Positions 2,505-25,311 of a stretch of 64,000 nucleotides of DNA are shown piece by piece. Under the pieces are notes generated by a model that saw only the letters and a list, made by a program, of their open reading frames with translations, made no database searches and had not been told where the DNA came from. Position 1 is the first letter of the stretch. The number at the start of each line of letters is the position of its first letter. The position numbers were made by a program, and so were the translations under genes. The stretch is from Claveliimonas bilis (GTDB lineage: Bacteria > Bacillota > Clostridia > Lachnospirales > Lachnospiraceae): the NCBI RefSeq assembly GCF_030296775.1, contig NZ_AP027742.1, positions 2,356,001 through 2,420,000 of the forward strand, read 5' to 3'.

Positions 2505-2730
2505 TTAGTCCACTTCAATCCCGGGATCCGCATTCGGCTGAATGTATCCTCCATCAATGGCATTTAATACGATGGTTTCTGTGCCCCATTTACGGATCTC
2601 CCCAGCCGAAGTTAAGCCTGTCCTTTCTAAATCGAAAACCCACACAGAAACCAACCATACTCTTTCAGGTTCTTCAATGCATTAATGTTGGCCGCACGAA
2701 TCCGAATAATTAAAACATTATATATGCGAT
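2505..2730 (-). pseudogene. 3' remnant of a second DUF6034-like lipoprotein gene
   Basis: Nucleotides about 2543-2735 are roughly 85% identical to 7953-8138, the 3' end of the lipoprotein gene at 7927-9438. The remnant has its own C-terminus (DGGYIQPNADPGIEVD-stop, stop at 2505-2507). It lost one A in a run (TCTTCAATGC here, TCTTCAAATGC in the intact copy), which breaks the frame, and it has no 5' part. It shows that a sister copy of the RiPP-associated lipoprotein once stood directly upstream of the ABC efflux operon. Confidence 0.85.
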
Positions 2731-2737
2731 AACGTAT

Positions 2738-2786
2738 AATTAATTGCAAAAAGGCCAGCAACTCCACTCAATATCTGCAATAAATA
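2738..2786 (-). pseudogene. short remnant of a peptide ABC exporter gene
   Basis: About 50 bases match 16163-16212 in the RiPP exporter gene (core CAGCAACTCCACTCAATATC and flanks). The fragment is fused directly to the lipoprotein remnant, which is not the gene order of the intact locus, so a deletion joined them. It is further evidence for a decayed sister copy of the RiPP locus. Confidence 0.65.
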
Positions 2787-2878
2787 AATCGCATTTTCCT
2801 GTTGAAACCAAGGGATTTTTCACCTCTTCCATACGTCTGCTTATGAAAACGAGAGTTAATTATCAAGGAAGTTCACAT

Positions 2879-4901: not shown

Positions 4902-6472
4902 CGAGCAGCAGCCTCCTTCCTTTCTGTGCGTTCCTGAAAGGCTTTTGCATAAACAGAAAGATCCGTGTAGCTGACACTGCCGGATGGAACCTGGGCACGG
5001 CAGTCGTCTGTGGTCAGTTCCCGGCCGGCTTTTGCAAGACTGTAAACAACTTTAAACTGTGAGAACTGATACCGGTATTTCTGGCAGCATTCCTTCATCA
5101 CCTGCGCTACCAGGGATTTATCCGGATTCTCAGAATCAAGGAACTGTTCAATTGCCCGAAGCTGTTTGGAGATATGCCGTGGATTTTCCTTTTTCACACC
5201 ATTGATGAAGTGCTGGAAGTCATAGCAGTTCCATTTCCCACGGAGACGCTCCATGATCTCGATCCAGTCTCCGGAGTCCTGTTTCCGGTGTTCCGGGAGC
5301 TGATTAACACTTCCCTTCCTCTCGCTGAGATTATGGGAACAGATATAGTTCAGCTGGTCATCATAAATGTGGATCTTCCCACTGACAACTTTGAACTGTA
5401 CCGTTTTGAAAGCATAATCACGTGGAACCGAATACCTGCATGATTTATACAGGACGTAAGGTATTGCCGCGATTTCATAAGTGCGGAATGTATTCGGAGA
5501 TGTTTCATACACGGATGGAAGAAGAGGCCGCATGGCTGACCTTTCAATGCTGTCGTAGACTGCTTTTGGGACCCGTAAGGTAGAACGGTGGATCCGCTGG
5601 TTCTTGCGTTCCAGCCATCCGGGCAGGGAACGCCATACATCATCGATACAGGTGACCTTCCGCGCACTGAAGAAGTTTTTCTTCACGAACCCGACAGAGT
5701 TTTCGATAGGTCCCTTGCTTTCCGGATCCGCTTTATTACACACCCAGAGCCGGATATCCTGTTCAGTACAGAAATCTTCAAAGGTCCTGGTCTTGATGAC
5801 TTCACCATAGGTTTCACTGGCGACAAACACGGCGTCCTGGTCAATGACCAGTTCTTTAGGACGCCCTCCAAGCCTGCAGAAACTACGGTAGATCGCCTTA
5901 CAGGCCTCTTCCGAGTTATACTTGTGATCCTGTGCATAGACGCATAAAAAACGGCTATAACGCAGCAAAAGGCACATGAAATGGATATGCGTTGTTTTTG
6001 AGAGAGTCTCCTCACCGAAGTCAATCAGCATCTGTTCTCCGGGCGGGGTGTCAAAAACATAATCATAGATACGGCGGTGCTCAGGCTCCCTGTTGATCTG
6101 TCCGGAATCCTCAAGATAATGGATGTAGTTCCGGAGCGTCTGTTGGTTCCCGGGAAGTTTCTCATAGTCTCCGTTTTCGATGAATTTTTCTTCCAGAACA
6201 TCGTAAACTGATGACATACAGAACGTTTTTCCGCTGTTTGTTTCAAGGATCCTGATAATCGTACTGCGGAAAGGTTCCGCATCAAAGGTTTTCGGTTTTG
6301 CGAGCTTAGCGCCGGGATCATCCGGGAGCACATCCATGTCATAATACTTGCTGATTGTGGGCCGGCTGGGAGGCTTGCGTCCCTGCGCTTCATAGTATCT
6401 GATAATATCAGCTTTTGTGTAACCTTGCAGTTTTAAATCCTGTATTTCCTGCATTTTTGTTTTTGTCAGCAT
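4898..6472 (-). CDS. istA: IS21 transposase IstA
   Basis: 524-residue DDE transposase. The N-terminus has a helix-turn-helix (about residues 5-45, YTKADIIRYYEAQGRKPP...). An rve integrase core lies around 140-300 with DFGEE (first Asp), IDQDAVF (second Asp) and the ENSVGFVKKNFF segment carrying the Glu. The length is usual for IstA. It starts 208 bases inside the right end of the element and overlaps istB by 4 bases. It appears intact. Confidence 0.95.
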   Translation of the reverse strand: MLTKTKMQEIQDLKLQGYTKADIIRYYEAQGRKPPSRPTISKYYDMDVLPDDPGAKLAKPKTFDAEPFRSTIIRILETNSGKTFCMSSVYDVLEEKFIENGDYEKLPGNQQTLRNYIHYLEDSGQINREPEHRRIYDYVFDTPPGEQMLIDFGEETLSKTTHIHFMCLLLRYSRFLCVYAQDHKYNSEEACKAIYRSFCRLGGRPKELVIDQDAVFVASETYGEVIKTRTFEDFCTEQDIRLWVCNKADPESKGPIENSVGFVKKNFFSARKVTCIDDVWRSLPGWLERKNQRIHRSTLRVPKAVYDSIERSAMRPLLPSVYETSPNTFRTYEIAAIPYVLYKSCRYSVPRDYAFKTVQFKVVSGKIHIYDDQLNYICSHNLSERKGSVNQLPEHRKQDSGDWIEIMERLRGKWNCYDFQHFINGVKKENPRHISKQLRAIEQFLDSENPDKSLVAQVMKECCQKYRYQFSQFKVVYSLAKAGRELTTDDCRAQVPSGSVSYTDLSVYAKAFQERTERKEAAAR

Positions 6473-6548
6473 AAAGGTCTCCTCTCTTGTGTACTGCTTA
6501 CAGTATACAAAATCGGATGAACTGCTGACTCCTCCTGTGATAAAACTC

Positions 6549-6675
6549 GCCGCAGAGGATGTAAAAAAGTTCTTACCGGACGGTGTAAAGAACTTCTTAC
6601 CAACTCATGTAAAAAACTCCTTACCGCGTCATGTAAAAAACTCCTTACCCTGTGGCTGTAAAATCACCTTACCAC
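6549..6675. repeat. right terminal repeat array of the IS21 element
   Basis: Five imperfect copies of TGTAAAAAANTCCTTACC, inverted relative to the left array, upstream of istA. Confidence 0.8.
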
Positions 6676-6680
6676 GCACA

Positions 6681-6841
6681 ACTTTGACTGGAGTCTCATC
6701 GGCCTGCAGCACATGGAAGCGGTACATCCTGTTATGAAGGTAATCATAAAGTGCCCCCAGATACCGGTCGGCACACTGGATCACCCAGTTGGCCATCACC
6801 TGCCGGGAGATGTGGAGTACTCTTAATTGAATGAATTGCAT
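6681..6841 (-). pseudogene. IS66 transposase TnpC core fragment
   Basis: Encodes SRQVMANWVIQCADRYLG followed by HVLQADETPVKV, the signature region of the IS66 DDE transposase. It is cut by the IS21 element after ...VKV, and upstream sequence fitting TnpC is missing. Confidence 0.85.
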
Positions 6842-6925
6842 GAGACCCGGATGTGGATAACTTCCACTGTATCTGCGAGGGCGAACCGGAAAAGATTTTT
6901 AAATTTCTCTGTTTTGCACAACGTA

Positions 6926-7095
6926 TCACAGGAGATTGCTGGGCTGCACTTCCTGGATCGGATGTCTGGATACGATCTCCAGCCCCTGCATCAGCGCCCG
7001 GTATTGTTCCGGCGTGATCTCCAGAGCCTCTTCTTTTGTACGGGACCAGCTGAAGCCGCCCTGTTTTAGCCTTTTGTAAACCTTCCGGAATCCGG
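6926..7095 (-). pseudogene. IS66 accessory protein TnpB, C-terminal fragment
   Basis: The minus-strand frame ending at TGA 6926-6928 reads RFPSGFRKVYKRLKQGGFSW, then RTKEEALEITPEQYRALMQG and ends in QPSNLL-stop, the normal C-terminus of the IS66 TnpB (Orf2) protein. The N-terminal half is absent and the piece is joined out of frame to tnpA. Confidence 0.8.
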
Positions 7096-7449
7096 ATGGA
7101 AAACGGATGATGCATCTGGTAACACAGCAGGAAGTTTGATCTCAGCGAAAGATACGGACTGCTGAACAGTAGATAACTGTCCCGTCTCTATAACTGCGGA
7201 CAGAGACGGATTTTGAGATGCTTCATAAGCTTCCCAGCGCAGGATGCGCTGCCAGTAAAAGAACTGTTTTCCAGAGATTCCGTTTGCCCGGCAGCAGGCG
7301 GTCTTTGGCATCCCGCTGTTCATACATTCATTCAGGATCTTGGTCCAGTGCTCTGCACGGACCTGATGTGTGATTTTATCTATGGCACTAACTCCTTTAA
7401 AAAACTTGTAGTTTTCTGGAGTTATTATCTCATGAGACAAGGAAACTAG
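7066..7449 (-). pseudogene. IS66 accessory protein TnpA, fused remnant
   Basis: The segment RAEHWTKILNECMNSGMPKT and FFYWQRILRWEAYE is the helix-turn-helix region of IS66 TnpA (Orf1). The tail (HPDSGRFTKG) is tnpB sequence read in the wrong frame, so the gene lost its own C-terminus by an internal deletion. Confidence 0.75.
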
Positions 7450-7517
7450 CACGGTACTAGTGATTTACCATATACAAACAAATTACTACATAATAATGAA
7501 TTAAACATATTATTGCT

Positions 7518-7556
7518 TTTCAGGCAAAGAAAACAATATGTTTTCTTTGCCTGAAA
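7518..7556. terminator. perfect hairpin downstream of the RiPP precursor
   Basis: Arms TTTCAGGCAAAGAAAACA at 7518-7535 and the exact complement at 7539-7556, with a 3-base loop, 63 bases after the precursor stop. No long T-run follows on the minus strand. It may act as a transcript end stabiliser or a weak terminator of the RiPP operon. Confidence 0.6.
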
Positions 7557-7618
7557 TTAATTAATTAAACATTCTAATATTACAACAAAAATATACTTTT
7601 AGCGCAGAAATAGAAAAA

Positions 7619-7798
7619 TCATGCTGTAATATTTCTGTCAATATTAGACTTCATGTTTTCACGTAAACTTTCTTTTGCAAGAGCCCACGGATATCCTCCC
7701 GGACCACAATAACAATCGCAATTGATATCACATACGCAATTCTTATACTGCTCTAATGTATTACGATTTTCTTGAATTCTTTTATTTAGTTTCTTCAT
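7619..7798 (-). CDS. Cys-rich RiPP precursor peptide (CLI_3235-class bacteriocin-like)
   Basis: 59-residue peptide, start ATG 7798 after AGGAGG (8-base spacing), stop at 7619. An N-terminal leader rich in K, N, R and E (about residues 1-20, MKKLNKRIQENRNTLEQYKN) is followed by a core with five cysteines at 21, 23, 27, 29 and 31 (CVCDINCDCYC), then GPGGYPW and a hydrophilic tail. Size, Cys spacing and position as last gene of a minus-strand operon with a SPASM radical SAM enzyme, exporter, acyl-carrier-like protein and S8 protease fit the TIGR04065-type 'CLI_3235' Cys-rich peptides. The modified residues, cleavage site and activity are not known. It is shorter than the usual ORF cutoff. Confidence 0.85.
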   Translation of the reverse strand: MKKLNKRIQENRNTLEQYKNCVCDINCDCYCGPGGYPWALAKESLRENMKSNIDRNITA

Positions 7799-7926
7799 TT
7801 CATATTCCTCCTATTTTTATAATGAATGCCTTATTATAAATAACATTATTCAAACTTCTTTAACTCTACTCCTCCTTTCCAAGAATAATTTTATGATTGA
7901 ATAATGTCATATATAGAAACAGTACA

Positions 7927-9438
7927 TTATCCTTCTCCCTGCTTGATCGATACAAATCCTCCATCAATTGCATTTAATACGACGTTTTCTGTGCCCCATT
8001 TAAGAACCTCCCCATCTGAAGTTAATCCTGTCTTTTCTAAATTGAAAACCCACACAGGAACCAACCATACTTTTTCAGGTTCTTCAAATGCATTAATGTT
8101 GGCCGCACGAATCTGTATATTTGTAACATTATATATACATTTTGTACCAGTATCCTTCAGCTCATCTCCATCGTCAGAAAGAGCGGAATACAGCAGGTGA
8201 TCTGCCAGTTTTTCCTTTATTTCATCAAAAGAAAGTAGCTTTGTGTTATTTGCAACTGTATCTATTTTCTTTGACATATTTGTCCAAGCAAATTTTTGAA
8301 CACCATCTTTCGTGATAATGATTTGAATTTTTTCGGAAGAAAATTGTGGGGCGTATACTGTTTCTGGAATTCCTTCTAGTATTTCAGGTGACCGCTGACT
8401 ATATCCCATCAAGTCTCCCAATGTACGATAAAAATAAATTGAAAATCCAACCTCATTAAAGGGATTATCTTCGTCCCATAATACCCATGTTTCTGTATTC
8501 CTATTTCCGATTGCTTTGACACAGCTGCCTACTTCAAACCCTTTTATTGATATTTTATCGAGTAAAGCCTTCGCTTCATTCAAAGCCTCCTCTTCAGATA
8601 GAGATGGTATCTCTTCCATATGTTCTTTTAATGATTTTAGCCAAGCATCATTTTTATTATTGCTATCTAAATTTCCATGAATCAAAGGCATCAGATATTC
8701 TTCATCAATAAACGTACCCTGGGAATACAGAAAATTGGTTGTGCTTCCTAATTTATCGCTATAGCTTATCGCACGGATTAAGGGGTTCTTTTCATTTTCT
8801 TTATCTATTTTGGCTGTGAAACCTAGTTTTTCGTCTGTATCATAATAATAATCACTTACTCCATCATAGAAATCTCTTTCTGTCTGTACCGGCTCCATAA
8901 GAACAGGCTTTATAGAATTCTTTGTTCCCGCTTTTTCTGGAGCTTCATCAATAAGTTGATCCATTTTACTAAGTTGATCCTGCCAATATTGAGTTGATCC
9001 TAATCCACCAGATAACGAAGCCCAAGTCCCCTCATAATTTTCCATTCTCGCTTTTTCCGATTCTAATTCATCTTTTGTCATCTTAGGATATTCATACAAT
9101 GGATTCCCATCTGAAAAATAATCGCATAATTTCTCCAACAATTCATTGGTCAATACTGATTGTTCATAAACATCTACAGGTGTATTGTATATTTCTGGTA
9201 TCTGTGGAGAATAATCTGCTTCTAAAGTAACAAAACCATCGCTTCTTTCAATCTTTTCGTGCCAATGATCAGGAATCTGCAGATCTTTTGGTACATCGTC
9301 ATCTTTTTCCAGAATGCTTTCTTTCGGAATCCCCTCTGATCGGTCAACAACAATTTCTTCTTGTGGCGTTTTAGCACATGCCATTAATCCAGAACTTAAA
9401 CATAGCAAACAAACCAAAATATATGTTTTGTTCTTCAT
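7927..9438 (-). CDS. DUF6034-like secreted lipoprotein of the RiPP locus
   Basis: 503-residue predicted lipoprotein. A signal peptide ends in the lipobox LMAC (lipidated Cys at about residue 21), so the protein is anchored outside the membrane. The rest is hydrophilic with no catalytic motif I recognise. The start PDHWHEKIERSDGFVTLEA resembles the DUF6034 family of Clostridia; this is from memory and unconfirmed. It lies 16 bases after the S8 protease gene and is followed by the precursor. A broken copy of its 3' end lies at 2505-2730 beside an ABC efflux operon. It could be an immunity or sensing component, but nothing in the sequence decides this. Confidence 0.75.
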   Translation of the reverse strand: MKNKTYILVCLLCLSSGLMACAKTPQEEIVVDRSEGIPKESILEKDDDVPKDLQIPDHWHEKIERSDGFVTLEADYSPQIPEIYNTPVDVYEQSVLTNELLEKLCDYFSDGNPLYEYPKMTKDELESEKARMENYEGTWASLSGGLGSTQYWQDQLSKMDQLIDEAPEKAGTKNSIKPVLMEPVQTERDFYDGVSDYYYDTDEKLGFTAKIDKENEKNPLIRAISYSDKLGSTTNFLYSQGTFIDEEYLMPLIHGNLDSNNKNDAWLKSLKEHMEEIPSLSEEEALNEAKALLDKISIKGFEVGSCVKAIGNRNTETWVLWDEDNPFNEVGFSIYFYRTLGDLMGYSQRSPEILEGIPETVYAPQFSSEKIQIIITKDGVQKFAWTNMSKKIDTVANNTKLLSFDEIKEKLADHLLYSALSDDGDELKDTGTKCIYNVTNIQIRAANINAFEEPEKVWLVPVWVFNLEKTGLTSDGEVLKWGTENVVLNAIDGGFVSIKQGEG

Positions 9439-9454
9439 TAGAAATCACCCCCTT

Positions 9455-10561
9455 CTATTCTTGTAATAATAATATCATATCTTTGCATATTGATTCTATT
9501 TCATGTTTACTATAATTGTGTATTACCTGGTTACAGACGGTTAATTTCATGCTATTTCGATACACATGTATCCAGCAACAATCAGTAGTATCTACTATAT
9601 TTGGAAATGTTAAAAGTATATTTGAATTTAATAATAAAAGATCAACATTACGATGAAATGAAATATTTATTTGTTGTTCGAAGTTTTGTTTATTATAATT
9701 TATAATTCTAAAATCATCGCTTGAAGAATTATTGTCTGTAATACATACACATTCATAACCAAATATTTTAGTAAGACAATTTAAAACATTAGAAAATATT
9801 GAAATATCATCTGATTCTATTAAAATAATTGGTGGATTGATAATTTTTTTTGGAAGCAGTGCTTCAGACAGTACATTAATCTGGCGATCATTACAGGTTT
9901 CTCCTTGGGCAAGAAACTGATTTATTAGGTTTCTTGAACATGAAAAACTACTTTCTTCGCATAACGCATCAACTTTATTTAACAAATTTGCCAAAACACG
10001 AGGAGCTGAAAAGCTATTTCCTATATTTGAATCCAAAACTGTCCCACAATCCACATGAAGATCATTATCTGGAATAGCATAGATTTTTTGACAACAAAAA
10101 TGTTCTACAGGTAATGCTATAGTTCCGATCACTTCTTGAAACGCTGCCGGCATAGTAATAAGATTAGCATTACTGCTTGCAGCTATTATAGTAATTCCAC
10201 TGTCATACATTTTTTTAATCAAAGGATATATTTCTTTTTGTTTTGATAATATCGTTGTGCCAATGCTCAAACATAATACATCAATTTGATTAGAAAAAAG
10301 AAATTCTAATGCAATTATGAAATCGTTAATATCTAATTGATTTTTATTCATAATATCAACATGTATTAAAACGTGGTTCTTAGGATTTCTTAAGTTATCG
10401 TTCAAAATCTTGCAGCATAATGTACTATGAGTAGAATTAACTATATCGTTTGTTTGGCATACCGTTTTTACTTGACATTTCGTTATTTTATACTTATGTA
10501 TCTGAGAAAAATCAAGCATTACATTATTATCTAAAGAATCGTCAATTATTCCTATTTTCAT
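9455..10561 (-). CDS. subtilisin-like (S8) peptidase of the RiPP locus
   Basis: 368-residue protein without a signal peptide, so probably cytoplasmic. The subtilase triad is recognisable: Asp7 in IGIIDDS, His45 in STHSTLCCKIL, oxyanion Asn131 in IAASSNAN and Ser183 in GNSFSAP. The catalytic domain covers about 1-200. The remaining ~170 residues are of unknown fold. ATG 10561 was chosen; an in-frame TTG at 10570 is close to GAGGCG and is an alternative. Either start overlaps the ACP-like gene. The ABC exporter lacks a C39 peptidase domain, so this protease is the natural candidate for leader removal, by inference from context. It may instead be a degenerate subtilase. Confidence 0.8.
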   Translation of the reverse strand: MKIGIIDDSLDNNVMLDFSQIHKYKITKCQVKTVCQTNDIVNSTHSTLCCKILNDNLRNPKNHVLIHVDIMNKNQLDINDFIIALEFLFSNQIDVLCLSIGTTILSKQKEIYPLIKKMYDSGITIIAASSNANLITMPAAFQEVIGTIALPVEHFCCQKIYAIPDNDLHVDCGTVLDSNIGNSFSAPRVLANLLNKVDALCEESSFSCSRNLINQFLAQGETCNDRQINVLSEALLPKKIINPPIILIESDDISIFSNVLNCLTKIFGYECVCITDNNSSSDDFRIINYNKQNFEQQINISFHRNVDLLLLNSNILLTFPNIVDTTDCCWIHVYRNSMKLTVCNQVIHNYSKHEIESICKDMILLLQE

Positions 10562-10808
10562 TAATGCCAATCGCCTCTATTTCTGCCGCCAAATTGTTAA
10601 CAGTAAATATTGGGCTATCATTCGTTTCTAAAATTCTGCAAATATTAATTCCATATTTAGTTTCAAGCGTATTAATTAAATATAAGAAATCAACGGTATC
10701 TATTCCAAACTTTTGATCAAGCAAATTATCATTTAAATCTGAAATAGTAATATCAAAAAGAGCACTAATTTCCTCTAACAACATTTTTTTAGCAATATCT
10801 TTTGTCAT
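10542..10808 (-). CDS. acyl carrier-related protein of the peptide maturation system
   Basis: 88-residue protein with the four-helix pattern of acyl carrier proteins. At the usual phosphopantetheine site, where ACPs have DSL, it has DTV (FGIDTVDFLYLI, Thr at about residue 38). The attachment serine is therefore missing and standard loading is unlikely. This fits the family of 'peptide maturation system acyl carrier-related proteins' (TIGR04069-type) seen next to CcpM-type radical SAM enzymes. It overlaps the protease gene and follows the TIGR04066-like gene by 33 bases. Its partner may be that protein or the maturase. Confidence 0.82.
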   Translation of the reverse strand: MTKDIAKKMLLEEISALFDITISDLNDNLLDQKFGIDTVDFLYLINTLETKYGINICRILETNDSPIFTVNNLAAEIEAIGINENRNN

Positions 10809-10841
10809 ATATATACCCCCTGTATATTTTTTACAAATGAT

Positions 10842-11906
10842 CTAAATTATCTCAGGATTTTCATTTAAAAGGGAAGTTAATTCATCTATGAATGTTTCAA
10901 TCCCTTTTTTATCGTCTGGAAGTAAGACAATATTGCTGTTCACAATTTCTGTTGGCAAATTTTCTTTACAAAACTTGTTAGAATAGAAATTATATTCTAC
11001 TTTTTCTTCCTCGGTATTTACATTATAAGTTTGATTACAGATATAGAATTTAATAATATCCACGCCCAATCGTAACTTACACAACTTTTTCATTTCATCA
11101 AAATATTTATCCGTATAGTATTTACTATAATGTATACAGAGAACACCATAATCACTTATTATTGCATTAGATAAAACATATGAAATTTCTCCAAAATAAT
11201 TGTGTTCATAATCATTTAATGTCATTATCCCACTAGGGCAACTAATCAGTATTATGTCAGGAAGTTTTTGCTCAGCTAAGTCACAAATAAAACTATTGGC
11301 TCGTTTAACTTTTAGAGGCAGAGATATATCATCCGCATATAAAAAATCAGGTAATACGTCACAATTAAATAACCTTGCAAGTGGATTCCCAGAAATTACT
11401 AAAACGCTATATCCTTTATCCTCTAAAACTTTTTTTACTGATAATATCAAAGAAAACTTATCACAATTTTCACCATCTCCTAATATAGAGATAACTGGGC
11501 ATGTCACTTTTCGTAATTTTTTTGACGAAGTACAAATTCTATTGTTATAGCTATTTAGAATTGTTGTCTCAGCATCTTTAAATACTTCAACTCCCAGCCA
11601 TTTATAGATAAAGCTGCTAGTGTATATTGGTATATTTTTTCGAATGGCTTCATTAATTCGATTAATATATGCTTTTTTGCCCATTTTTTGCACATTATCA
11701 CATAAAATCAAGACATCGCAATCCATAAGGGCTTTTTCGGAATCATTTGTGTAAATGCTATTTTTTTGAACTTCTATTTCATTTTCTTTATATGTAACTA
11801 TAAAACTTATTTCATATTTTTTTAATTCCTTGGAGTGTTCATAGATTACATTCGACTCATAATTTGCAGGGAACAATACAATTTTTCTCTTACTATTCTC
11901 ACTCAT
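10842..11906 (-). CDS. TIGR04066-like peptide maturation system protein
   Basis: 354-residue cytoplasmic protein starting MSENSKRKIVLFPANYESN. It has alternating Rossmann-like segments (for example VTCPVISILGDGENCDKFSL near 165 and DIILISCPSGIM near 235), consistent with a nucleotide-binding fold, but no catalytic motif that I can name. It matches the 'peptide maturation system protein, TIGR04066 family' found in clostridial CLI_3235 loci. ATG 11906 has GGAGG six bases upstream. Before the IS4-family insertion the radical SAM frame ended at 11899, overlapping this start by 8 bases, so the two were coupled. The insertion now separates this gene from its promoter. Confidence 0.78.
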   Translation of the reverse strand: MSENSKRKIVLFPANYESNVIYEHSKELKKYEISFIVTYKENEIEVQKNSIYTNDSEKALMDCDVLILCDNVQKMGKKAYINRINEAIRKNIPIYTSSFIYKWLGVEVFKDAETTILNSYNNRICTSSKKLRKVTCPVISILGDGENCDKFSLILSVKKVLEDKGYSVLVISGNPLARLFNCDVLPDFLYADDISLPLKVKRANSFICDLAEQKLPDIILISCPSGIMTLNDYEHNYFGEISYVLSNAIISDYGVLCIHYSKYYTDKYFDEMKKLCKLRLGVDIIKFYICNQTYNVNTEEEKVEYNFYSNKFCKENLPTEIVNSNIVLLPDDKKGIETFIDELTSLLNENPEII

Positions 11907-11993
11907 CATGATCCTCCTCGTGAAAATGATATCCATTTTCTATCAAAACACATAATTCTTTTAAATTATACAAAGTATCATTTATACTCGTTT

Positions 11994-12000
11994 TACAACT
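11994..12000. repeat. target site duplication TACAACT (left) of the IS4-family element
   Basis: TACAACT at 11994-12000 is repeated at 13573-13579, immediately outside the inverted ends of the element. Confidence 0.85.
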
Positions 12001-12157
12001 CTTGAGTTTCCGCAAACTGCATTAAAAAGATAGATATGTCTTCCTAAAGTACCAATCTGCTGTTTTTTGAGAAATTTAGAATGGCAGCACCGAGAATAGA
12101 GGCACTTTTATAAGCCCCGTCGGAACCGGGCTTGGGGAGATATATTCTTTTATCTAT

Positions 12158-13411
12158 TCAAACGGTCAGCTTAAGGCAGAGTTGACGGTTCACTGGACGT
12201 TTTGTCCTGTACCAGAGCCGGATGCCCTCTTTTGCATATGACAGTATGCCGAAGATGCCTTTTGCCAACCGATAATAGCAGAAACTGACTTTCTCCTTGA
12301 TTGGATTAGCTTCCTGTATGATTGAAACTTTCAGGGGGTTTGTATCAGGACTTAATTCTTCCTGCGCTAAAAATGCCATGGCTAAAGTAATATAAAAGTT
12401 AAGCGCATTAATGGCTTCCAGTTTCCTTACACGGAAGTTTTCAAACTGATAGGTCTGCTTTTTACAACGAAAATATTCCTCGATCCGCCATCTGGAAAAG
12501 TAGGTTCTGGCAATGCGGATCACATCATCCTTTGAACGGATCTCTTTGTTTGTAGCCAGCATCATGGGATGTTCCGTGATCCCATAGACCAGGACCAGAT
12601 AGATATCCTTCCGGGAGGCAGTGATATGAACTTTTACGTGGGAAAGATATGCGGTATGTCTTTTTCCTTTATAGAAAACATCCGCTTTTACTTTTCCTTT
12701 CCTCCGGTTCCGCAGTTCCGTTGCCTTTGTCCATTTATTGTGATAAAGAAGTTTCCGGTTGGATTTCAGACGGATCACGTAATTCTGCTTCAGATGGTCG
12801 AGGACGAGAAATATCTTATTGTCATCATAACCGCGGTCCATAACAAAGGTGGCCTTCCCAAAAAGAGCAGCTGCCTGTTTGATCGCATCAAACGTGATGG
12901 TGTTTACAGATTTATAGTCCTTCTCAGCAGAAGAATGGATCATGGAAAAAACACTGACAGGATGCTTGCTGGCAGTCAGGGCACAGGCCTCTGTTACATG
13001 GTATCCTTTTTTATAAACACTTTTCGTCTGTGTGCTTTCAGAACCATCGCGAATGATACCAAGAGCTTCAAACTGTTTTCCATCTGGTTTTACGATATCA
13101 CTTTCATCAATGAGGACCACTGGTTCAGAGGGAACGCGTCTCTTTACGGTATGGAGATAAGAAGCAGCCGCAGAAGCCGGCGTTCCTTCTGAAAGATGAT
13201 TGGAAAGCCGTTTTACAGTATTGGCTTTCTGTACTGTTTCATGAAGCTGGTCGGAAATATCAGTGAGCAGGCAGCTTCTGGATGCCAGAATGCCATAAAC
13301 CATATCTGCTGTGAACTTTCGGTCTGGTTTCGAAAGTCTGCGGGAGATTTTATTAGTAAAAGTCAAAATTTTTCTTTTCAAACGATAAGTAGTTGATGTA
13401 GAATTAGCCAT
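12158..13411 (-). CDS. IS4-family DDE transposase
   Basis: 417-residue transposase that catalyses cut-and-paste movement of the element. Acidic residues occur in VLIDESDI and FVMDRGYDD. The C-terminal segment YFSRWRIEEYFRCKK fits the IS4 signature Y-2-R-3-E-6-K. The start at 13411 follows AAAGGGGA. The gene is full length and fills nearly the whole element. Its start region is in an inverted repeat that could hide the ribosome site when transcription enters from outside. Confidence 0.92.
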   Translation of the reverse strand: MANSTSTTYRLKRKILTFTNKISRRLSKPDRKFTADMVYGILASRSCLLTDISDQLHETVQKANTVKRLSNHLSEGTPASAAASYLHTVKRRVPSEPVVLIDESDIVKPDGKQFEALGIIRDGSESTQTKSVYKKGYHVTEACALTASKHPVSVFSMIHSSAEKDYKSVNTITFDAIKQAAALFGKATFVMDRGYDDNKIFLVLDHLKQNYVIRLKSNRKLLYHNKWTKATELRNRRKGKVKADVFYKGKRHTAYLSHVKVHITASRKDIYLVLVYGITEHPMMLATNKEIRSKDDVIRIARTYFSRWRIEEYFRCKKQTYQFENFRVRKLEAINALNFYITLAMAFLAQEELSPDTNPLKVSIIQEANPIKEKVSFCYYRLAKGIFGILSYAKEGIRLWYRTKRPVNRQLCLKLTV

Positions 13412-13493
13412 AAGGAATCCCCTTTCTTTTTTGTTTAGTAAAGTTTTTGTTTGGTAGCTTAATTTTACATCAAAAAGGAACAGGATTCCTTAT
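13410..13493 (-). promoter_or_regulatory. inverted repeat that can sequester the transposase start
   Basis: ATAAGGAATCC at 13410-13420 covers the spacer between ribosome site and ATG; its exact complement lies at 13483-13493. mRNA reading in from the flanking operon would contain both arms and could close the start, while a transcript begun between them would not. Such protection from read-through is known in other insertion sequences. Here it is inferred from pairing only. Confidence 0.55.
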
Positions 13494-13567
13494 ATTTTGG
13501 ACATTTTTTGAAAGTTGTGGATAACAAAACGCAGCATATTTGTCTTAGGGGATAATTCTGCGGAAAC

Positions 13568-14899
13568 TCAAGTACAACTACATAACTTTCCTTCGCATGT
13601 TAATTTATTATTTGTAGGCTCAACTTGTCCTACACACATTCTACATAAACGTAAATTCCAACATTCCAAACATTCTTTTTCTGTCAATTGACCGATGTTC
13701 AAAATATAACGCATTTTATTATAATCAAATCCCTTTTCAACACTTCCTATCTTCATTCCTTGAACATTTTCACTAACTCTTTCGCATGGATAAAAATCTC
13801 CTGAAGTGTCTACAAACAACCTTCTTACCCCAGGGATGCATGGACCACCGTGATGCATTGCTTCCAGTTCTATATAATGTTGATGAGTCTCTTTATAAAA
13901 AAGTTCTATTGCTCTATGATCTGTAATATATAAGGGGTGTATATATTTCCGATCAATTTTTCCCAATAAGTATAGCAATACCTTTAAGTGTTCATATCTG
14001 TGTGGAATCCAAAATGAATCATTTACTTTAAGTAATCCATTATTTGATACACCTGTTTCATTTAACATACTTAATCTGACTTGAATAGGATTGAATAACT
14101 TTGAATTAGCGAAATAGTCTAAAACATTTTTTAAATCCGCTTTTGGATTGATGACGGTATTATATCTTACAGTAGAAAAAAATTCTTCGTCATACTTTTT
14201 TATTTTGTTTAAATTTCGAACGATTACATCAAAAGAACCTTGCCCATTTCTAAATTTACGATTTACATCGTGTTCTTCTTTTTTGCCGTCTAAACTGATT
14301 GTAACTGCAAATTTATGTTTTGCTAAAAAGCTAATAACCTCTTCTGATAATAAAGTTCCGTTAGTAGTTATAAAAAAACTCAATTCTTTATCCTGAACTT
14401 TTCCCTCGGCATACTCTACGCATTTTTTGATGAGCGGAAACTCTAATAATGGCTCTCCTCCGTAAAAAGCAATAATTAATTTATCTGAATCTATAGAATG
14501 TTCAAAATAAAAATCTATTGCTTCCCGTGCTATCTCCCAAGACATTCTTTTGTCTGAATGTCCTCTATTATAATAATTACCCGAATATGTACAATAGAAG
14601 CATCTTAAGTTGCATTGCTGCGTCACTTGTAATATTAGTTCTTTTAATTGCTTGTTTGCATAATATTCAATATCATCGGAAGAGGGGTGAATTATTTTTT
14701 TTGTAATCTTCTTCTGCAATAATCCTTTTTGTAAATATTTGTCTAATTCCCTGCAATTATTTGGAATTTTCCCATCTCGTTCGACATTTTTTAAGATTTT
14801 GTATTCCTCAGGATTTACGCAAACTACTGAATTTGTGTGTCGATCATAGAAATAATACTTTTTTAATGTTGAAAAACATTTTATTACAATTTCTCCCAT
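13568..14899 (-). CDS. SPASM radical SAM peptide maturase (CcpM-like), C-terminally truncated
   Basis: 443 residues as it stands. The radical SAM cluster is CNLRCFYC (Cys 96, 100, 103), followed by GGEP and a TIM-barrel region. Cysteines at about 345 and 365 and the groups CLECWNLRLCRMC and CEGKLCSC form the SPASM/twitch auxiliary-cluster domain. An N-terminal domain of ~80 residues fits leader binding. The family is that of Cys-rich peptide maturases (CcpM, TIGR04068-type), so its substrate should be the peptide at 7619-7798. ATG 14899 is preferred; GTG 14905 is possible. The IS4-family insertion supplies the stop: the original frame continued 31 codons to 11899. All visible cluster cysteines remain, but activity is uncertain. 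Confidence 0.9.
   Translation of the reverse strand: MGEIVIKCFSTLKKYYFYDRHTNSVVCVNPEEYKILKNVERDGKIPNNCRELDKYLQKGLLQKKITKKIIHPSSDDIEYYANKQLKELILQVTQQCNLRCFYCTYSGNYYNRGHSDKRMSWEIAREAIDFYFEHSIDSDKLIIAFYGGEPLLEFPLIKKCVEYAEGKVQDKELSFFITTNGTLLSEEVISFLAKHKFAVTISLDGKKEEHDVNRKFRNGQGSFDVIVRNLNKIKKYDEEFFSTVRYNTVINPKADLKNVLDYFANSKLFNPIQVRLSMLNETGVSNNGLLKVNDSFWIPHRYEHLKVLLYLLGKIDRKYIHPLYITDHRAIELFYKETHQHYIELEAMHHGGPCIPGVRRLFVDTSGDFYPCERVSENVQGMKIGSVEKGFDYNKMRYILNIGQLTEKECLECWNLRLCRMCVGQVEPTNNKLTCEGKLCSCT
13573..13579. repeat. target site duplication TACAACT (right) of the IS4-family element
   Basis: Second copy of the 7-bp duplication. It lies inside codons of the radical SAM gene (AGT TGT A..). Confidence 0.85.
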
Positions 14900-14984
14900 A
14901 GACACCTTCTCCCTTCTTTATATAGATACTTTTATAATTGTTTCCATCCTTAACATATTCAACTTCTTCTAATTAATTTATTGA

Positions 14985-15332
14985 CTATTTCTTTTGGATT
15001 TTATGACATTTAATCTCATATATTTTGTCTAAATTTTCTAGATTTTCTGCTTTATGGGTAACAATTATCACAGTTTTATTATTACATTTTTGAAAAATAT
15101 AATTGTGAATAAAACTGTCATATATCCGATCTATATTTGAAGTGGCTTCATCCATTATAATAATTTTTGCATCTTTGACTATTGCTCGTATGAAGGCAAC
15201 TTTTTGACGCTCCCCGCCGGATAAATTTCCTCCGTTTCTATCAAGTATCGTATTCAATCCTTGTGGCAAACTTTGAATAAACTTTTCTAACTTTAATTCT
15301 TCTATTATTTGCCAGAGTTGACTATCAGTCAT
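14985..15332 (-). CDS. C-terminal part of the RiPP ABC exporter ATPase (split gene)
   Basis: 115 residues holding the rest of the nucleotide-binding domain: signature LSGGERQ, Walker B IIIMDEATS and the H-loop VTHK. It starts at an ATG that overlaps the stop of the upstream part in ATGA, directly after seven A residues. Alone it lacks Walker A and cannot be an ATPase. It could work as a separately translated half, or be joined to the first part by -1 slippage on the A7 run (GGA AAA AAA TGA becoming GGA AAA AAA ATG). A simple inactivating one-base deletion, or a sequencing error in the homopolymer, is also possible. Confidence 0.85.
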   Translation of the reverse strand: MTDSQLWQIIEELKLEKFIQSLPQGLNTILDRNGGNLSGGERQKVAFIRAIVKDAKIIIMDEATSNIDRIYDSFIHNYIFQKCNNKTVIIVTHKAENLENLDKIYEIKCHKIQKK

Positions 15333-16594
15333 TTTTTTCCTAAAAGAATATTATTTCGCAAAGTATCTCTGAATAAATATATGTCTTGACTTATAACACT
15401 AAATAATTGACGATAACAATTAAGTTTTACTTCTCCAATATCAACGCCATCTATTAAAATTTGTCCCTTTTGTGGATGATAAAATTGTAATAGAAGTTGA
15501 ATTAAGGTTGATTTACCTGAACCATTATCTCCTATAAGGGCTATTCTTTCACCTTTCTTAATTGTTAATGAAATATCATTTAAAACAGGATGATTTTTAT
15601 CATAATAAAAACTAACATTATTAAAAATGATTTCTTTATCAAAATTTTTTATTTCACGATATCCGCTTAATGTTTGCTCGTTTTCCAGTTTTTTTAATTT
15701 TTGCAACCTTTTGATAGATGGTTTTATTTGTGCAAGCAAGAATTTCAAATTAAAAATCAAAGCTATAGGACCAATTACATAAGAACTGTATGTAATAAAT
15801 GCAGTTAAACTACCTACGGTCATTTCGTTGATACAAACAAAATAACCTCCTACGCCATAAAGGAATCCAGTGATAATCCATTGCAACAAAGTATCTCCTG
15901 CCAAATTAAATGAATTTAAGAGATTACCTTCTTTGAGAAACTTGAGATTATATTTTTGATATTTTATCAATTCTTTTTTCTTTATTTTAAATAAATTCCA
16001 TAATTTAATTTCAGCAATTCCATTTAATGTATCATCAAACCATCCGGAAAAATCGGAATAATATTTTAAAATACATTCTGTGTTTTGCTCTCTTTTATTT
16101 GAAAAAAAAGTAATTAAACAAAATTTTATTGGTACTGCAAGAAGAACAAAGATAGCAAGTTTCCAATTAATTACAAATAATCCAGCAACTCCACTCAATA
16201 TCTGCAATAAATAGCTTACTGTATTTATCAAGCCACTATTAAATAACGAACTAATATTGTCTATATCTGATGTAATTCTGTTAATAATTTCAGAAGAATT
16301 ATTATTTTTAAAATAAGCCACTTTAAGATTCAATAAATAGCTAAAATATTTGTAATACAGCCTTAATACAATCCAATTTTGTATATTTACATAAACCGAA
16401 GTTTGTAAAATACTAATCCCAGATTCTATAATAGATAATCCAACTAGTATAATAGAACATACTATTACGACACTAAAAGTTTTTCCTACTAATCCAGTAT
16501 CAACAATTTTCTGAATAACTAATGGACGGCCAAATGCAATAATTACTGTGATTACATAACAAAAAAATATCTCTATAATCCATCTCTTTTTCAT
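15329..16594 (-). CDS. RiPP ABC exporter, membrane domain and N-terminal ATPase part (split gene)
   Basis: 421 residues: six membrane helices of the ABC exporter type-1 fold (about 1-285) and the first part of the nucleotide-binding domain, with Walker A GDNGSGKS and a Q-loop (VISQDIYLF). There is no N-terminal C39 peptidase, so leader cleavage must be done elsewhere, probably by the S8 protein. The frame stops at TGA right after an A7 tract, just where the ATPase should continue. It is the first gene of the RiPP operon, about 90 bases downstream of a good promoter. Expected role: export of the matured peptide, possibly also self-protection. Confidence 0.88.
   Translation of the reverse strand: MKKRWIIEIFFCYVITVIIAFGRPLVIQKIVDTGLVGKTFSVVIVCSIILVGLSIIESGISILQTSVYVNIQNWIVLRLYYKYFSYLLNLKVAYFKNNNSSEIINRITSDIDNISSLFNSGLINTVSYLLQILSGVAGLFVINWKLAIFVLLAVPIKFCLITFFSNKREQNTECILKYYSDFSGWFDDTLNGIAEIKLWNLFKIKKKELIKYQKYNLKFLKEGNLLNSFNLAGDTLLQWIITGFLYGVGGYFVCINEMTVGSLTAFITYSSYVIGPIALIFNLKFLLAQIKPSIKRLQKLKKLENEQTLSGYREIKNFDKEIIFNNVSFYYDKNHPVLNDISLTIKKGERIALIGDNGSGKSTLIQLLLQFYHPQKGQILIDGVDIGEVKLNCYRQLFSVISQDIYLFRDTLRNNILLGKK
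15332..15338 (-). other. A7 tract at the exporter frame break
   Basis: The minus strand reads GGAAAAAAATGA. The upstream frame ends at TGA and the downstream frame starts at the overlapping ATG. One extra A, or a -1 slip, gives a single 535-residue exporter. Confidence 0.75.
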
Positions 16595-16683
16595 ATGATA
16601 CGCCTTACACGATTTTTATTACGATTGTTGTTGAGTAATCCACTTATAACCTTGTCATCTATGCGATAATTTATTTTTAATAT

Positions 16684-16712
16684 ATTATATAATATCAAGT
16701 CATTATTTTCAA
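16684..16712 (-). promoter_or_regulatory. sigma-70 type promoter of the RiPP operon
   Basis: On the minus strand, TTGAAA (16712-16707), 17 bases, TATAAT (16689-16684). It lies about 90 bases upstream of the exporter start. The surroundings are very A+T rich, but both boxes and spacing are near consensus. Confidence 0.6.
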
Positions 16713-16990
16713 TATATTTTTAACATATTAAATTATATACTAATAATAAATTAAATCAATTGAATTTTACACATTATATTCAAATTTAAATTAATATTAA
16801 AGGAAATATCGAAATTTAATTTACTGCTTTAGATTGCTAAGGTTTTCAGCACAAAATTATTAAAGATTACGGAAATAAAGCAATAAGATGTTATTATTGA
16901 TTATTCAATATTTTTATATTATTAAATAGTGAAATATAAATAATAATGTGTTATTATAATAATATATAACGGTTGCAAAGGAGGATAAAA
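16713..16990. promoter_or_regulatory. A+T-rich divergent control region with dyad at 16940-16957
   Basis: The gap between the RiPP operon (minus) and the BlaI operon (plus) holds no gene. A dyad ATAATAA-TGTG-TTATTAT at 16940-16957 lies just upstream of the blaI-like ribosome site (AAAGGAGG, 16977-16984). It is a candidate operator for autoregulation by the BlaI-type protein. Low complexity makes chance occurrence possible. Confidence 0.35.
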
Positions 16991-17365
16991 ATGATTAAGT
17001 TAACACGAAGGCAGGAAGATATCATGAAAATATTGTGGGAATCGGACAAACCATTAATTGCATCAGAAATCGAAAAAAAGCAGGATGATCTTAATATTAA
17101 TACTGTCCAGGCTACGCTCCGAGCTCTTATGAAGAAAAATGCCATTGAAGTTGCAGACATTGTTTATAGTGGAACTGTATTGTCCAGAAGCTATAGGCCA
17201 ATTATAAGTCGGGATCAGGTTATCACAGAATATGATCAGGTAGTTAGTAAGGTATTAAATGATAAGAACCTGATTGCACATTATGTGGATGAAATTAACG
17301 ATCTGGCTGCTATTACAGAATTAGAAAAAATAATCAAAGAAAAAAGGAAAAAATTGGAGAAATAA
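16991..17365 (+). CDS. BlaI/MecI-family transcriptional repressor
   Basis: 124-residue winged-helix repressor. The N-terminal part (ITKLTRRQEDIMKILW-like start, then NTVQATLRALMKK) is the BlaI/MecI DNA-binding domain, and the C-terminal helices serve dimerisation. Such repressors are inactivated when a partner M56 membrane peptidase senses a signal and triggers cleavage. ATG 16991 follows AAAGGAGGATAAAA. The M56 gene begins 4 bases after its stop, so they form an operon. With no beta-lactamase nearby, the target is more likely its own operon with the small secreted protein, and perhaps the divergent RiPP operon. Confidence 0.88.
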   Translation: MIKLTRRQEDIMKILWESDKPLIASEIEKKQDDLNINTVQATLRALMKKNAIEVADIVYSGTVLSRSYRPIISRDQVITEYDQVVSKVLNDKNLIAHYVDEINDLAAITELEKIIKEKRKKLEK

Positions 17366-17368
17366 TAT

Positions 17369-18514
17369 ATGCGCTTAGTTTCTTTTGGATCCCTTTTGAT
17401 ATGTTTTTTGTCAATTATTGTTCTGACTATATATATGTATTTAACTTTAAACAGGGCAAAAGGCATTTTGATCTGTTACCTAAAACCTATATTTGTTTTG
17501 TCAGCCATTATTATGCTTCGAATGCTGATACCTGTTAATTTTCCATTTACCTATTCCTTTCGCGGAGCAAAAATCATGAATGCTGTAGGGAATATTGTAT
17601 ACATTAAAATAACCGAAACTGTAAATATTTTTGATATAATGCTGGGCATTTGGTTCATAGGAGCAGTCATCCAGATTATTCGTTATATACTAAAAAGAAA
17701 AAAAGTATATACCTATATTACCCCCTATATCCTGTCAGCAGAAGAAGTAAAAGAATCTGAATATTATTATTTGTTAAATACATATAAACAAAGCAAAATG
17801 CAAGTAGCTTGTGTACCAGAAAATGTTAGTCCTTCTATCTTTGGTATCTTTCATCCAATTATTATTTTTCCACAAAATATTGTTTCTTCAAAGGACTTAC
17901 ATTTTATTTTATCACATGAAATACAACATTATCGTAACTTTGATTTACATTTAAAAGTTATACTTGATTTATTAGTTGCAGTGCATTGGTGGAATCCTTT
18001 TGTATATATGCTAAGAAAGAAATATAATAGTGCAATAGAATTTTCAAATGACTATATGGTATCCAGGCAATTAAATGAAACTGAAAAAATAGAATATGCA
18101 GAATCACTTCTGAATATTGCAAAGATACCATTTTCAGACAAATCCTTCGACCTTTCATTAGTTGAGAACGCTAATTTTAAAAAAAGAATCTCTCTGCTTG
18201 TAGAAAATGCTAATGTTGCTAACAGCAGGAAAATGGTCACCTTGATTTTAAATATTATGTTTATTTCAATAATAATGTTTATTTCTTTGTTTTTTGTTCC
18301 AGAGGCAGATTACAGTAAAGAAGCAGAGGAAGTTTTTAAAGAAGCAGGCGCATTCAGTATTACTCCAGATAACGCTTATATAGTAACTGCCATTGATGGT
18401 TATAAATTATATATGAATGGAGAATTTATCGGTACAATGACCAGTATACCGGAGGATTTAAAGGAGGTTCCAATTTATGAAGAGAAAACTATTAATCAAA
18501 AGTCTGGTGACTAA
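17369..18514 (+). CDS. M56 family (BlaR1-type) membrane metallopeptidase
   Basis: 381-residue membrane protein. Four or so N-terminal membrane helices carry the zinc-site motif HEIQH (LSHEIQHYRN, about residues 190-194). A further helix near 285-310 is followed by only ~70 extracellular residues. It lacks the penicillin-binding sensor domain of true BlaR1, so its signal differs from beta-lactams. It is expected to pass an outside signal to the BlaI-type repressor encoded 4 bases upstream. The last 38 bases overlap the next gene in another frame. Confidence 0.88.
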   Translation: MRLVSFGSLLICFLSIIVLTIYMYLTLNRAKGILICYLKPIFVLSAIIMLRMLIPVNFPFTYSFRGAKIMNAVGNIVYIKITETVNIFDIMLGIWFIGAVIQIIRYILKRKKVYTYITPYILSAEEVKESEYYYLLNTYKQSKMQVACVPENVSPSIFGIFHPIIIFPQNIVSSKDLHFILSHEIQHYRNFDLHLKVILDLLVAVHWWNPFVYMLRKKYNSAIEFSNDYMVSRQLNETEKIEYAESLLNIAKIPFSDKSFDLSLVENANFKKRISLLVENANVANSRKMVTLILNIMFISIIMFISLFFVPEADYSKEAEEVFKEAGAFSITPDNAYIVTAIDGYKLYMNGEFIGTMTSIPEDLKEVPIYEEKTINQKSGD

Positions 18515-18716
18515 TTTGCTGGTATTAACAATGCTTTTTCCTTGTTATACAGCATATGCGCAACAACCGATTACTAATCCAATCTCAAAAGAAGAATCAC
18601 AAATAGGAAAGGCAAATAGATATGTGTGGAAGTATAAAGAGATTAACGGAAAGATTTATAAAAGATTATATGACCTTACTGAAAACAGATGGATTGGTGA
18701 CTGGATCTTAGTATAA
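18477..18716 (+). CDS. small secreted protein downstream of the M56 peptidase
   Basis: 79 residues. MKRKLLIKSLVTNLLVLTML then FPCYTAYA is a clear Sec signal peptide with cleavage expected after AYA (about residue 28). The mature ~50 residues are hydrophilic with aromatic repeats (KANRYVWKYKEINGKIYKRL) and no cysteine. GGAGG precedes the ATG, which lies inside the end of the M56 gene, so the two are translationally coupled. Function unknown. As third gene of a BlaI/M56 operon it may be the signal, a co-sensor, or a defence factor. Confidence 0.75.
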   Translation: MKRKLLIKSLVTNLLVLTMLFPCYTAYAQQPITNPISKEESQIGKANRYVWKYKEINGKIYKRLYDLTENRWIGDWILV

Positions 18717-18762
18717 TCAAATATTATATCAATCTCTCAAATGTGCGTTGTCTTTATAAATA

Positions 18763-18797
18763 GTTAGCTCCTTTCAAATAAAAAATCAGGAGCTAAC
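18763..18797. terminator. hairpin with perfect 10-bp stem after the BlaI operon
   Basis: GTTAGCTCCT (18763-18772) pairs with AGGAGCTAAC (18788-18797) across a 15-base loop. No strong T-run follows on the plus strand, so termination is only suggested by position. Confidence 0.45.
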
Positions 18798-18816
18798 AGG
18801 GTCACAACCTATAATA

Positions 18817-18860
18817 AGAGACAGGCCTCCTTTTATGCAAGCATAAGGAGTCCTGCCTCT
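18817..18860. terminator. bidirectional terminator between the BlaI operon and leuS
   Basis: Long hairpin with arms AGAGACAGGCCTCCTT and AAGGAGTCCTGCCTCT (one mismatch/bulge), loop around TTATGCAAGCAT, T-rich on the plus-strand side. It ends 18 bases before the leuS stop codon. Confidence 0.75.
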
Positions 18861-18877
18861 TCTTTTATCCGCACAGC

Positions 18878-21304
18878 TTACTTCTGTACAATATTTATAA
18901 TTCTTCCCGGCACATAGATTTCCTTTACAATGGTTCCGGTCAGTTTGTCTTTGACAGCTTCTTTTCCTTTCTCCAGGGCTTCTTCTTTAGAAATCTCTGC
19001 AGGAAGTGATACGACTGCTCTTGTTTTTCCATTGATCTGGACAGCGATCTCAATCTCATCGTCCTTCATTGCTTCTTTATCGTAAGACGGCCATCCTGCA
19101 TGGAATACAGTCTCTTCATGCCCCAGCTCTTCCCACATTTCCTCTGCCATATGAGGTGCAAACGGAGCAAGGAGCACAGCCAGAGCTTCCAATGTCTCTT
19201 TGTCTATGCCGCCGGCTTTCTTCGCGATCTCTGTCAGCTTGTTTGTATGTTCCATAAATGCGGAAATAACTGTATTGAGGCTGAAGCTCTCCAGACGAGT
19301 TGTAACATCATAAATCAGTTTATGACGTTCTTTTACCATATCCTTTGACGCCTCGATCTCTTTCTCCTTGCTGTCCTGAAGGAGGTTCCATACTTTCTTC
19401 AGGAAACGATATACTCCGTCGATTCCTCTGTCATCCCACTCGGCATCCAGTTCCGGCGGACCTACAAACAGCTCATACATTCTAAGAGAATCGCATCCGT
19501 AATCTCTTACCAGATCATCCGGAGATACGACATTTCCTTTGGATTTGCTCATCTTGATACCATTCTTTCCGGTGATCATTCCCTGATTGAACAGCTTTGT
19601 AAACGGCTCGTCAAAATCGATCACTCCGATATCACACAGGAATTTTGTGTAAAATCTGGAATAGAGCAGATGGAGCACCGCATGCTCTACTCCGCCGATA
19701 TACATATCTACCGGAAGCAGCGCATCTGCCTTCTCCCTTGATACAAGCTCCTCGCTGTTGTGATTATCCACATAGCGCAGGAAATACCAGGAAGATCCTG
19801 CCCACTGCGGCATGGTATTTGTCTCTCTCTTAGCTGGTTTTCCACATACCGGACACTTGCAGTTTACCCATTCCTCGATACCTGCAAGCGGAGATTCTCC
19901 TGTACCTGTAGGCTCATAGGACTCCACATCCGGCAGACGGAGCGGCAGCTCCTCTTCCGGTACCGGCACAGCGCCGCAGTCCGGACAGTGTACGATCGGG
20001 ATCGGTTCTCCCCAGTAACGCTGACGGGAAAATACCCAGTCACGCAGCTTGTAATTTACCGTAGCTCGTCCGATTCCTTTTTTCTCTATAATATGCGGGC
20101 CTTCCTTTTTCAGCACAGAAGATTCCATTCCGTTCCACTCTCCGGAATTGATCATGATTCCTGATGCCTCGGTATATGCCTCTGTCATATTTTCTATTTC
20201 TTTGCCGTCTTTGGAAATAACCTGAACGATCGGGATTCCGAATTTGGTAGCAAATTCAAAGTCGCGGTCATCATGGGCAGGTACGCACATGATCGCTCCT
20301 GTACCATAATCCGCCAGTACATAATCGGACAGCCAGATCGGTGTCTTCTCTCCGTTCAGCGGGTTGATGGCATAACTTCCTGTAAAAACGCCTGTCTTCT
20401 CCTTATCCTGCAGACGATCCACGTTTGACTTCATGGATGCCTCATAAATATACTGGTCAACCGCCTCTTTATATTCCGGTGTAGCGAGCTCTGCCGCCAG
20501 CTTATGTTCCGGAGCAAGTACCATGAAAGTAGCGCCGTACAGCGTATCCGGTCTTGTGGTGTAGACTGTGATCTTATCGTCCCGTCCTTCTACCGGGAAA
20601 TCCACTTCCGCTCCGTAGGATTTACCGATCCAGTCAGACTGCATCTTTTTCACTTTCTCCGGCCAGTCAAGCTTGTCCAGATCATTTAAAAGACGCTCTG
20701 CATAAGCGGTGATCTTCAGCATCCACTGACGGAGGTTTTTCTTCGTCACTTCCGTACCGCATCTTTCACATTTTCCGTTTACAACCTCTTCATTTGCAAG
20801 ACCTGTCTTACAGGACGGACACCAGTTGATCGGAAATTCTTTTTCATATGCCAGACCCTCTTTGAACATTTTCACAAAGATCCACTGTGTCCATTTATAA
20901 AATTCCGGGTCCGTTGTATTGACTTCCATATCCCAGTCATACAACGCTGCGATCTGGTTGATCTGCTCTTTGATGTGCTTTACATTTTCTGCAGTAGATT
21001 TTGCCGGATGTACTCCCATCTTGATCGCATAGTTTTCTGCCGGAAGTCCGAACGCATCCCATCCCATGGGATGAATAATATAATATCCCTGCAATAATTT
21101 GTATCTGCTCCACACATCAGAAATAACATATCCTCTCCAGTGTCCTACGTGGAGGCCATTTCCTGATGGATACGGAAACATATCCAGGCAGTAATATTTC
21201 TCGCGCTCTTTGCCAGTCTTATCTACTTTGACGTTAACTGGATTTTTCTCCCAGTTTTCCCGCCATTTTTTCTCAATCGCCTTATGATTATAAGGTACAG
21301 CCAT
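18878..21304 (-). CDS. leuS: leucyl-tRNA synthetase
   Basis: 808-residue class I aminoacyl-tRNA synthetase that charges tRNA-Leu. The HIGH motif reads HVGH (in GNGLHVGHWRGY, about residues 49-60), the KMSKS motif is exact (KMSKSKGN), and the editing (CP1) domain and zinc-binding cysteine pairs (CPSCKTG, CERCG) lie between. Length is normal for bacterial LeuS. AGGAGGAATGAATA precedes the ATG. A consensus-like promoter lies 90 bases upstream and no T-box leader was found in the short 5' region. Confidence 0.97.
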   Translation of the reverse strand: MAVPYNHKAIEKKWRENWEKNPVNVKVDKTGKEREKYYCLDMFPYPSGNGLHVGHWRGYVISDVWSRYKLLQGYYIIHPMGWDAFGLPAENYAIKMGVHPAKSTAENVKHIKEQINQIAALYDWDMEVNTTDPEFYKWTQWIFVKMFKEGLAYEKEFPINWCPSCKTGLANEEVVNGKCERCGTEVTKKNLRQWMLKITAYAERLLNDLDKLDWPEKVKKMQSDWIGKSYGAEVDFPVEGRDDKITVYTTRPDTLYGATFMVLAPEHKLAAELATPEYKEAVDQYIYEASMKSNVDRLQDKEKTGVFTGSYAINPLNGEKTPIWLSDYVLADYGTGAIMCVPAHDDRDFEFATKFGIPIVQVISKDGKEIENMTEAYTEASGIMINSGEWNGMESSVLKKEGPHIIEKKGIGRATVNYKLRDWVFSRQRYWGEPIPIVHCPDCGAVPVPEEELPLRLPDVESYEPTGTGESPLAGIEEWVNCKCPVCGKPAKRETNTMPQWAGSSWYFLRYVDNHNSEELVSREKADALLPVDMYIGGVEHAVLHLLYSRFYTKFLCDIGVIDFDEPFTKLFNQGMITGKNGIKMSKSKGNVVSPDDLVRDYGCDSLRMYELFVGPPELDAEWDDRGIDGVYRFLKKVWNLLQDSKEKEIEASKDMVKERHKLIYDVTTRLESFSLNTVISAFMEHTNKLTEIAKKAGGIDKETLEALAVLLAPFAPHMAEEMWEELGHEETVFHAGWPSYDKEAMKDDEIEIAVQINGKTRAVVSLPAEISKEEALEKGKEAVKDKLTGTIVKEIYVPGRIINIVQK

Positions 21305-25268: not shown

Positions 25269-25311
25269 AATTTTTTCCATCCTTTGTATGATTGTTTTTA
25301 TTTTTTACCTT

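Follow-up and report, generated by a model that had tools for sequence, protein, structure and literature searches.

In the Claveliimonas bilis genome studied here, the ABC exporter gene of a peptide cluster of the CcpM/CLI_3235 type has probably lost one A from a tract of eight, which would leave the strain with a non-functional or barely functional exporter. That the A was truly lost by mutation, and not dropped in assembly, is our inference, as is the loss of exporter function. The gene lies in a stretch of 64,000 nucleotides (the window), which comes from a complete 3.11-Mb genome.

Sequence and reading frames at the break site

The break site (GGAAAAAAATGA, window 15329-15340, minus strand) consists of an A7 tract with TGA stop and ATG overlapping; in the sister strain the tract is A8. 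Read directly on the minus strand from 15340 to 15329 it is GGA AAA AAA TGA, and on the plus strand a run of exactly seven T's occupies positions 15332-15338. The upstream exporter fragment (15329-16594, minus strand) encodes 421 amino acids up to the stop codon TGA and comprises the ABC_membrane domain and the N-terminal half of the ATPase. The downstream fragment (14985-15332, minus strand) encodes the 115 amino acids of the C-terminal half and lies in the −1 frame relative to the 421-codon ORF, the overlap of the two being ATGA. Together the two ORFs make up a complete ABC exporter. Transmembrane domain, Walker A and Q-loop region remain on the first chain; the LSGGE signature, Walker B and the H-loop histidine are on the second. 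The split therefore divides the nucleotide-binding domain after the Q-loop and before the signature motif, with positions 1-74 of Pfam ABC_tran in the first chain and positions 84-137 in the second. The initial annotation had described the GGA AAA AAA TGA end with an ATG overlapping in the −1 frame, and a match of the two parts without loss of residues. Sequence and ORFs bear out both statements, the sum of 421 and 115 residues being 536 as in the intact protein of strain c-25.

Two elements at the junction resemble translation signals. On the minus strand the slippery motif A_AAA_AAA stands in the correct phase before the TGA, as at programmed frameshift sites, and an AGGA is found five bases upstream of the ATG of the second fragment. 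This AGGA abuts the A tract and is the sole Shine-Dalgarno-like element.

An intact allele in strain c-25

The comparison within the species was made with one other strain, C. bilis c-25 (NZ_AP024845.1). At the break site c-25 has eight A's, and its exporter is a single ORF of 536 amino acids (2280751-2282358 of the record). Eight A's in a sister strain had been named beforehand as the finding that would speak against a functional split, and c-25 returned this result together with an unbroken gene. Cluster and gene order are the same in both strains, and 535 of the 536 exporter residues are identical. The missing A is the sole gap in a 7,886-bp alignment to c-25; the only other difference in the exporter is codon 287 (Phe/Leu), apart from which the first fragment equals the first 421 residues of the intact protein. 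Thus c-25 combines A8, one ORF and a ccpM gene without an insertion sequence (IS), whereas the strain studied here has A7 and an IS. An intact collinear homologue in a close relative and a single disrupting indel are what is expected of a frameshift pseudogene. Furthermore, the ATG of the second fragment is the codon for Met422 of the intact protein, and in the c-25 allele both ATG and AGGA are ordinary coding sequence. The overlapping ATG only resembles a designed restart.

Exporters of more distant relatives

Exporters were also taken from CcpM (radical-SAM RiPP) clusters of other genera of the family. All nine (29-39% identical) read through the junction as a single ORF, and none of them has an A-run of such length there. 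Their junction codons are unrelated, e.g. GGG GAG AAA TTA or TAT AAG CAG GTG, and an ATG is present at the same place in one of the nine homologues (L068) as an ordinary in-frame codon. Because these relatives are single ORFs without the A-run, the unsplit exporter is the ancestral state and neither the slippery tract nor the restart is conserved. The nine homologues and c-25 are unshifted at the site, and in none of these relatives do the two chains occur as separate units. Among 11 genomes of the genus that were searched no close orthologue was found beyond those of the two strains (next best match 33% identical), and a DNA search of 60 relatives gave short partial matches only. A literature search by species name yielded, as far as titles and abstracts tell, nothing on the exporter gene.

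Age of the deletion

We compared the 334 kb shared by this genome and c-25. The surroundings of the cluster mostly show about 1-3% divergence between the two strains. Within window 6,363-18,946, IS excluded, there are three substitutions (8553, 11793, 15736) and the one-base loss. With so few differences the loss of the A must be very recent, and almost everything else that separates the two cluster copies is older than the split. The copies seem to share a very recent origin, which would have left little time for a recoding signal to evolve. The low-divergence segment comprises the peptide cluster and the adjacent BlaI/M56 pair; at 18947, inside leuS, divergence rises sharply to about 1.3%. 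The segment looks like a recently shared or exchanged stretch.

The shared 334 kb contain 37 one-base indels, with 23 extra and 14 missing bases in the genome studied here. A systematic shrinkage of homopolymers relative to c-25 was not seen in this region, and A/T tracts of seven or eight change in both directions. Among the 21 A/T8 tracts in the alignment, two are not the same in both strains; it is not unusual in these genomes for a long A/T run to change its length. A second differing A/T tract is found at window 25301-25306 (T6 here, T8 in c-25) in an apparently intergenic position.

The peptide cluster and its second lesion

The following genes of the cluster are encoded on the minus strand. 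A CLI_3235-family Cys-rich precursor peptide of 59 amino acids (7619-7798, TIGR04065) is accompanied by a subtilase-like (S8/QhpE-like) cluster protein (9455-10570, weak match), an acyl-carrier-related protein (10542-10808, TIGR04069, weak match below cut-off), a TIGR04066 family peptide maturation system protein (10842-11936, profile match) and ccpM, encoding a radical SAM Cys-rich peptide maturase (13568-14905, TIGR04068, over cut-off). The precursor peptide was absent from the initial annotation. Scores of 541 bits against a cut-off of 500 for TIGR04068, 215 against 200 for TIGR04066 and 37.4 against 26 for TIGR04065 assign the locus to the CcpM RiPP clusters. As in CcpM/CLI_3235 radical-SAM RiPP clusters (TIGR04065, 04066, 04068, 04069), precursor, CcpM, TIGR04066 protein and ACP-like protein are situated beside an ABC exporter, but in this copy the exporter is broken and the maturase is truncated by an IS.

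This insertion sequence of 1572 bp (12001-13572) carries an IS4-type DDE transposase gene (12158-13411, minus strand), has matching terminal sequences at its ends (CTTGAGTTTCCGC) and is flanked by a 7-bp target duplication, TACAACT. Three identical copies are present in this genome and none in c-25; the element is recently active. In CcpM the IS replaces the last 26 residues by one Thr, so that the protein is 25 residues shorter (445 amino acids compared to about 470 in c-25). The operon thus carries two strain-specific lesions, the deletion in the exporter gene and the IS in ccpM.

At window 2505-2790 lie decayed fragments that resemble the cluster lipoprotein (7927-9438) at its end and, over 49 bp (92%), the exporter. 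A second cluster copy may have left them behind. The alignment to c-25 is gapless at this position.

Origin of the split

The contraction from A8 to A7 would most likely have occurred by replication slippage. Loss of the A would put the TGA in frame directly after the tract and cut the ATPase between Q-loop and signature motif. Little or no activity is expected of the exporter, because signature motif, Walker B and H-loop are missing from the first chain. A one-base loss was one of three explanations offered by the initial annotation, and it is the one favoured by the A8 tract and the unbroken gene of c-25. The other two, programmed slippage and a two-chain ATPase, are opposed by relatives that are unsplit and lack the A-run, by a downstream RNA of no more than ordinary structure and by the very recent date of the split.

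Programmed −1 ribosomal frameshifting at A_AAA_AAA, or transcriptional slippage, would produce a 536-residue fusion that equals the intact protein exactly, and the heptamer is in the right phase for it. The A-run in −1 phase followed by a stop is reminiscent of programmed sites with A_AAA_AAA or A_AAA_AAG heptamers (dnaX, IS elements). Unlike at those sites, neither conservation nor a stimulatory structure was detected: folding of the 80 nt downstream is hardly more stable than that of shuffled sequences (z −0.94, calculated without pseudoknots), and an upstream Shine-Dalgarno stimulator was not found, as the AGGA abuts the tract. In E. coli, heptamers without stimulators shift little, with a background of 0.055% and a ratio between motif and no motif of at most 10 (PMC4066793). 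Selection against transcriptional slippage is evident mostly at nine A's (PMC1088944). The site is missing from every relative, and with A8 the intact allele is read without any slippage. With no conservation, no structure and an intact sister allele, we rejected programmed recoding as exceedingly improbable; a low level of full-length product by adventitious recoding at A_AAA_AAA is possible. Hardly any probability falls to a genuine two-chain ATPase made by ATGA-coupled re-initiation either. The AGGA could serve as ribosome site for the overlapping ATG, and genes of ABC transporters are often translationally coupled (PMC3711429). Nevertheless the published example, drrAB, joins whole genes, while the cut reported here lies inside a domain; the would-be start signals belong to the coding sequence of the intact allele, and we rejected this explanation since no relative is split at the junction. 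Some internal initiation from AGGA/ATG could occur in the broken allele. A programmed function for the split exporter is not supported.

An error deserves more weight, although we consider it unlikely. The strain would then truly have A8 and an intact exporter, the A7 being due to assembly or sequencing. Miscounting of homopolymers is a classic source of error, and apart from the missing A and one codon the gene equals its intact counterpart in c-25. A survey of frame transitions counts in the same direction: where a frameshift is isolated and validated by homology, it expects a sequencing error in most cases (PMC3711429). On the other hand, the 23 extra and 14 missing bases argue against a general homopolymer shrinkage, and the neighbouring IS indicates an operon that is taking real hits. 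A slippage mutation and an isolated base-calling error both fit, and we prefer the mutation. There is a slim chance that peptide export is switched on and off by the A7/A8 tract: one strain would be off (A7) and one on (A8) with genes otherwise nearly identical, and homopolymeric tracts within genes have been put forward as a general means of switching in prokaryotes (PMC2831843). Against this, the tract is short, the homologues do not conserve it, and similar one-off tract changes are seen at other sites of the two genomes. Equally slight is the probability of a reversible switch in which, when off, A_AAA_AAA still yields small amounts of full-length exporter.

A one-base loss by mutation, the preferred explanation, is an ordinary kind of event. 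Like other frameshifted genes at homopolymers (indel pseudogenes, 'authentic frameshifts'), the exporter gene shows a single-base poly-A contraction and two collinear fragments matching one intact homologue. It differs in that the event is very recent and the fragments are as yet without further decay.

The main importance of the finding is for annotation: both small ORFs are best entered as a single frameshifted gene. It also shows that one lost base is enough to create what looks like a neat slippery site with an overlapping ATG. For the strain itself, these comparisons suggest a peptide cluster with a probable defect in export and a possible one in maturation.
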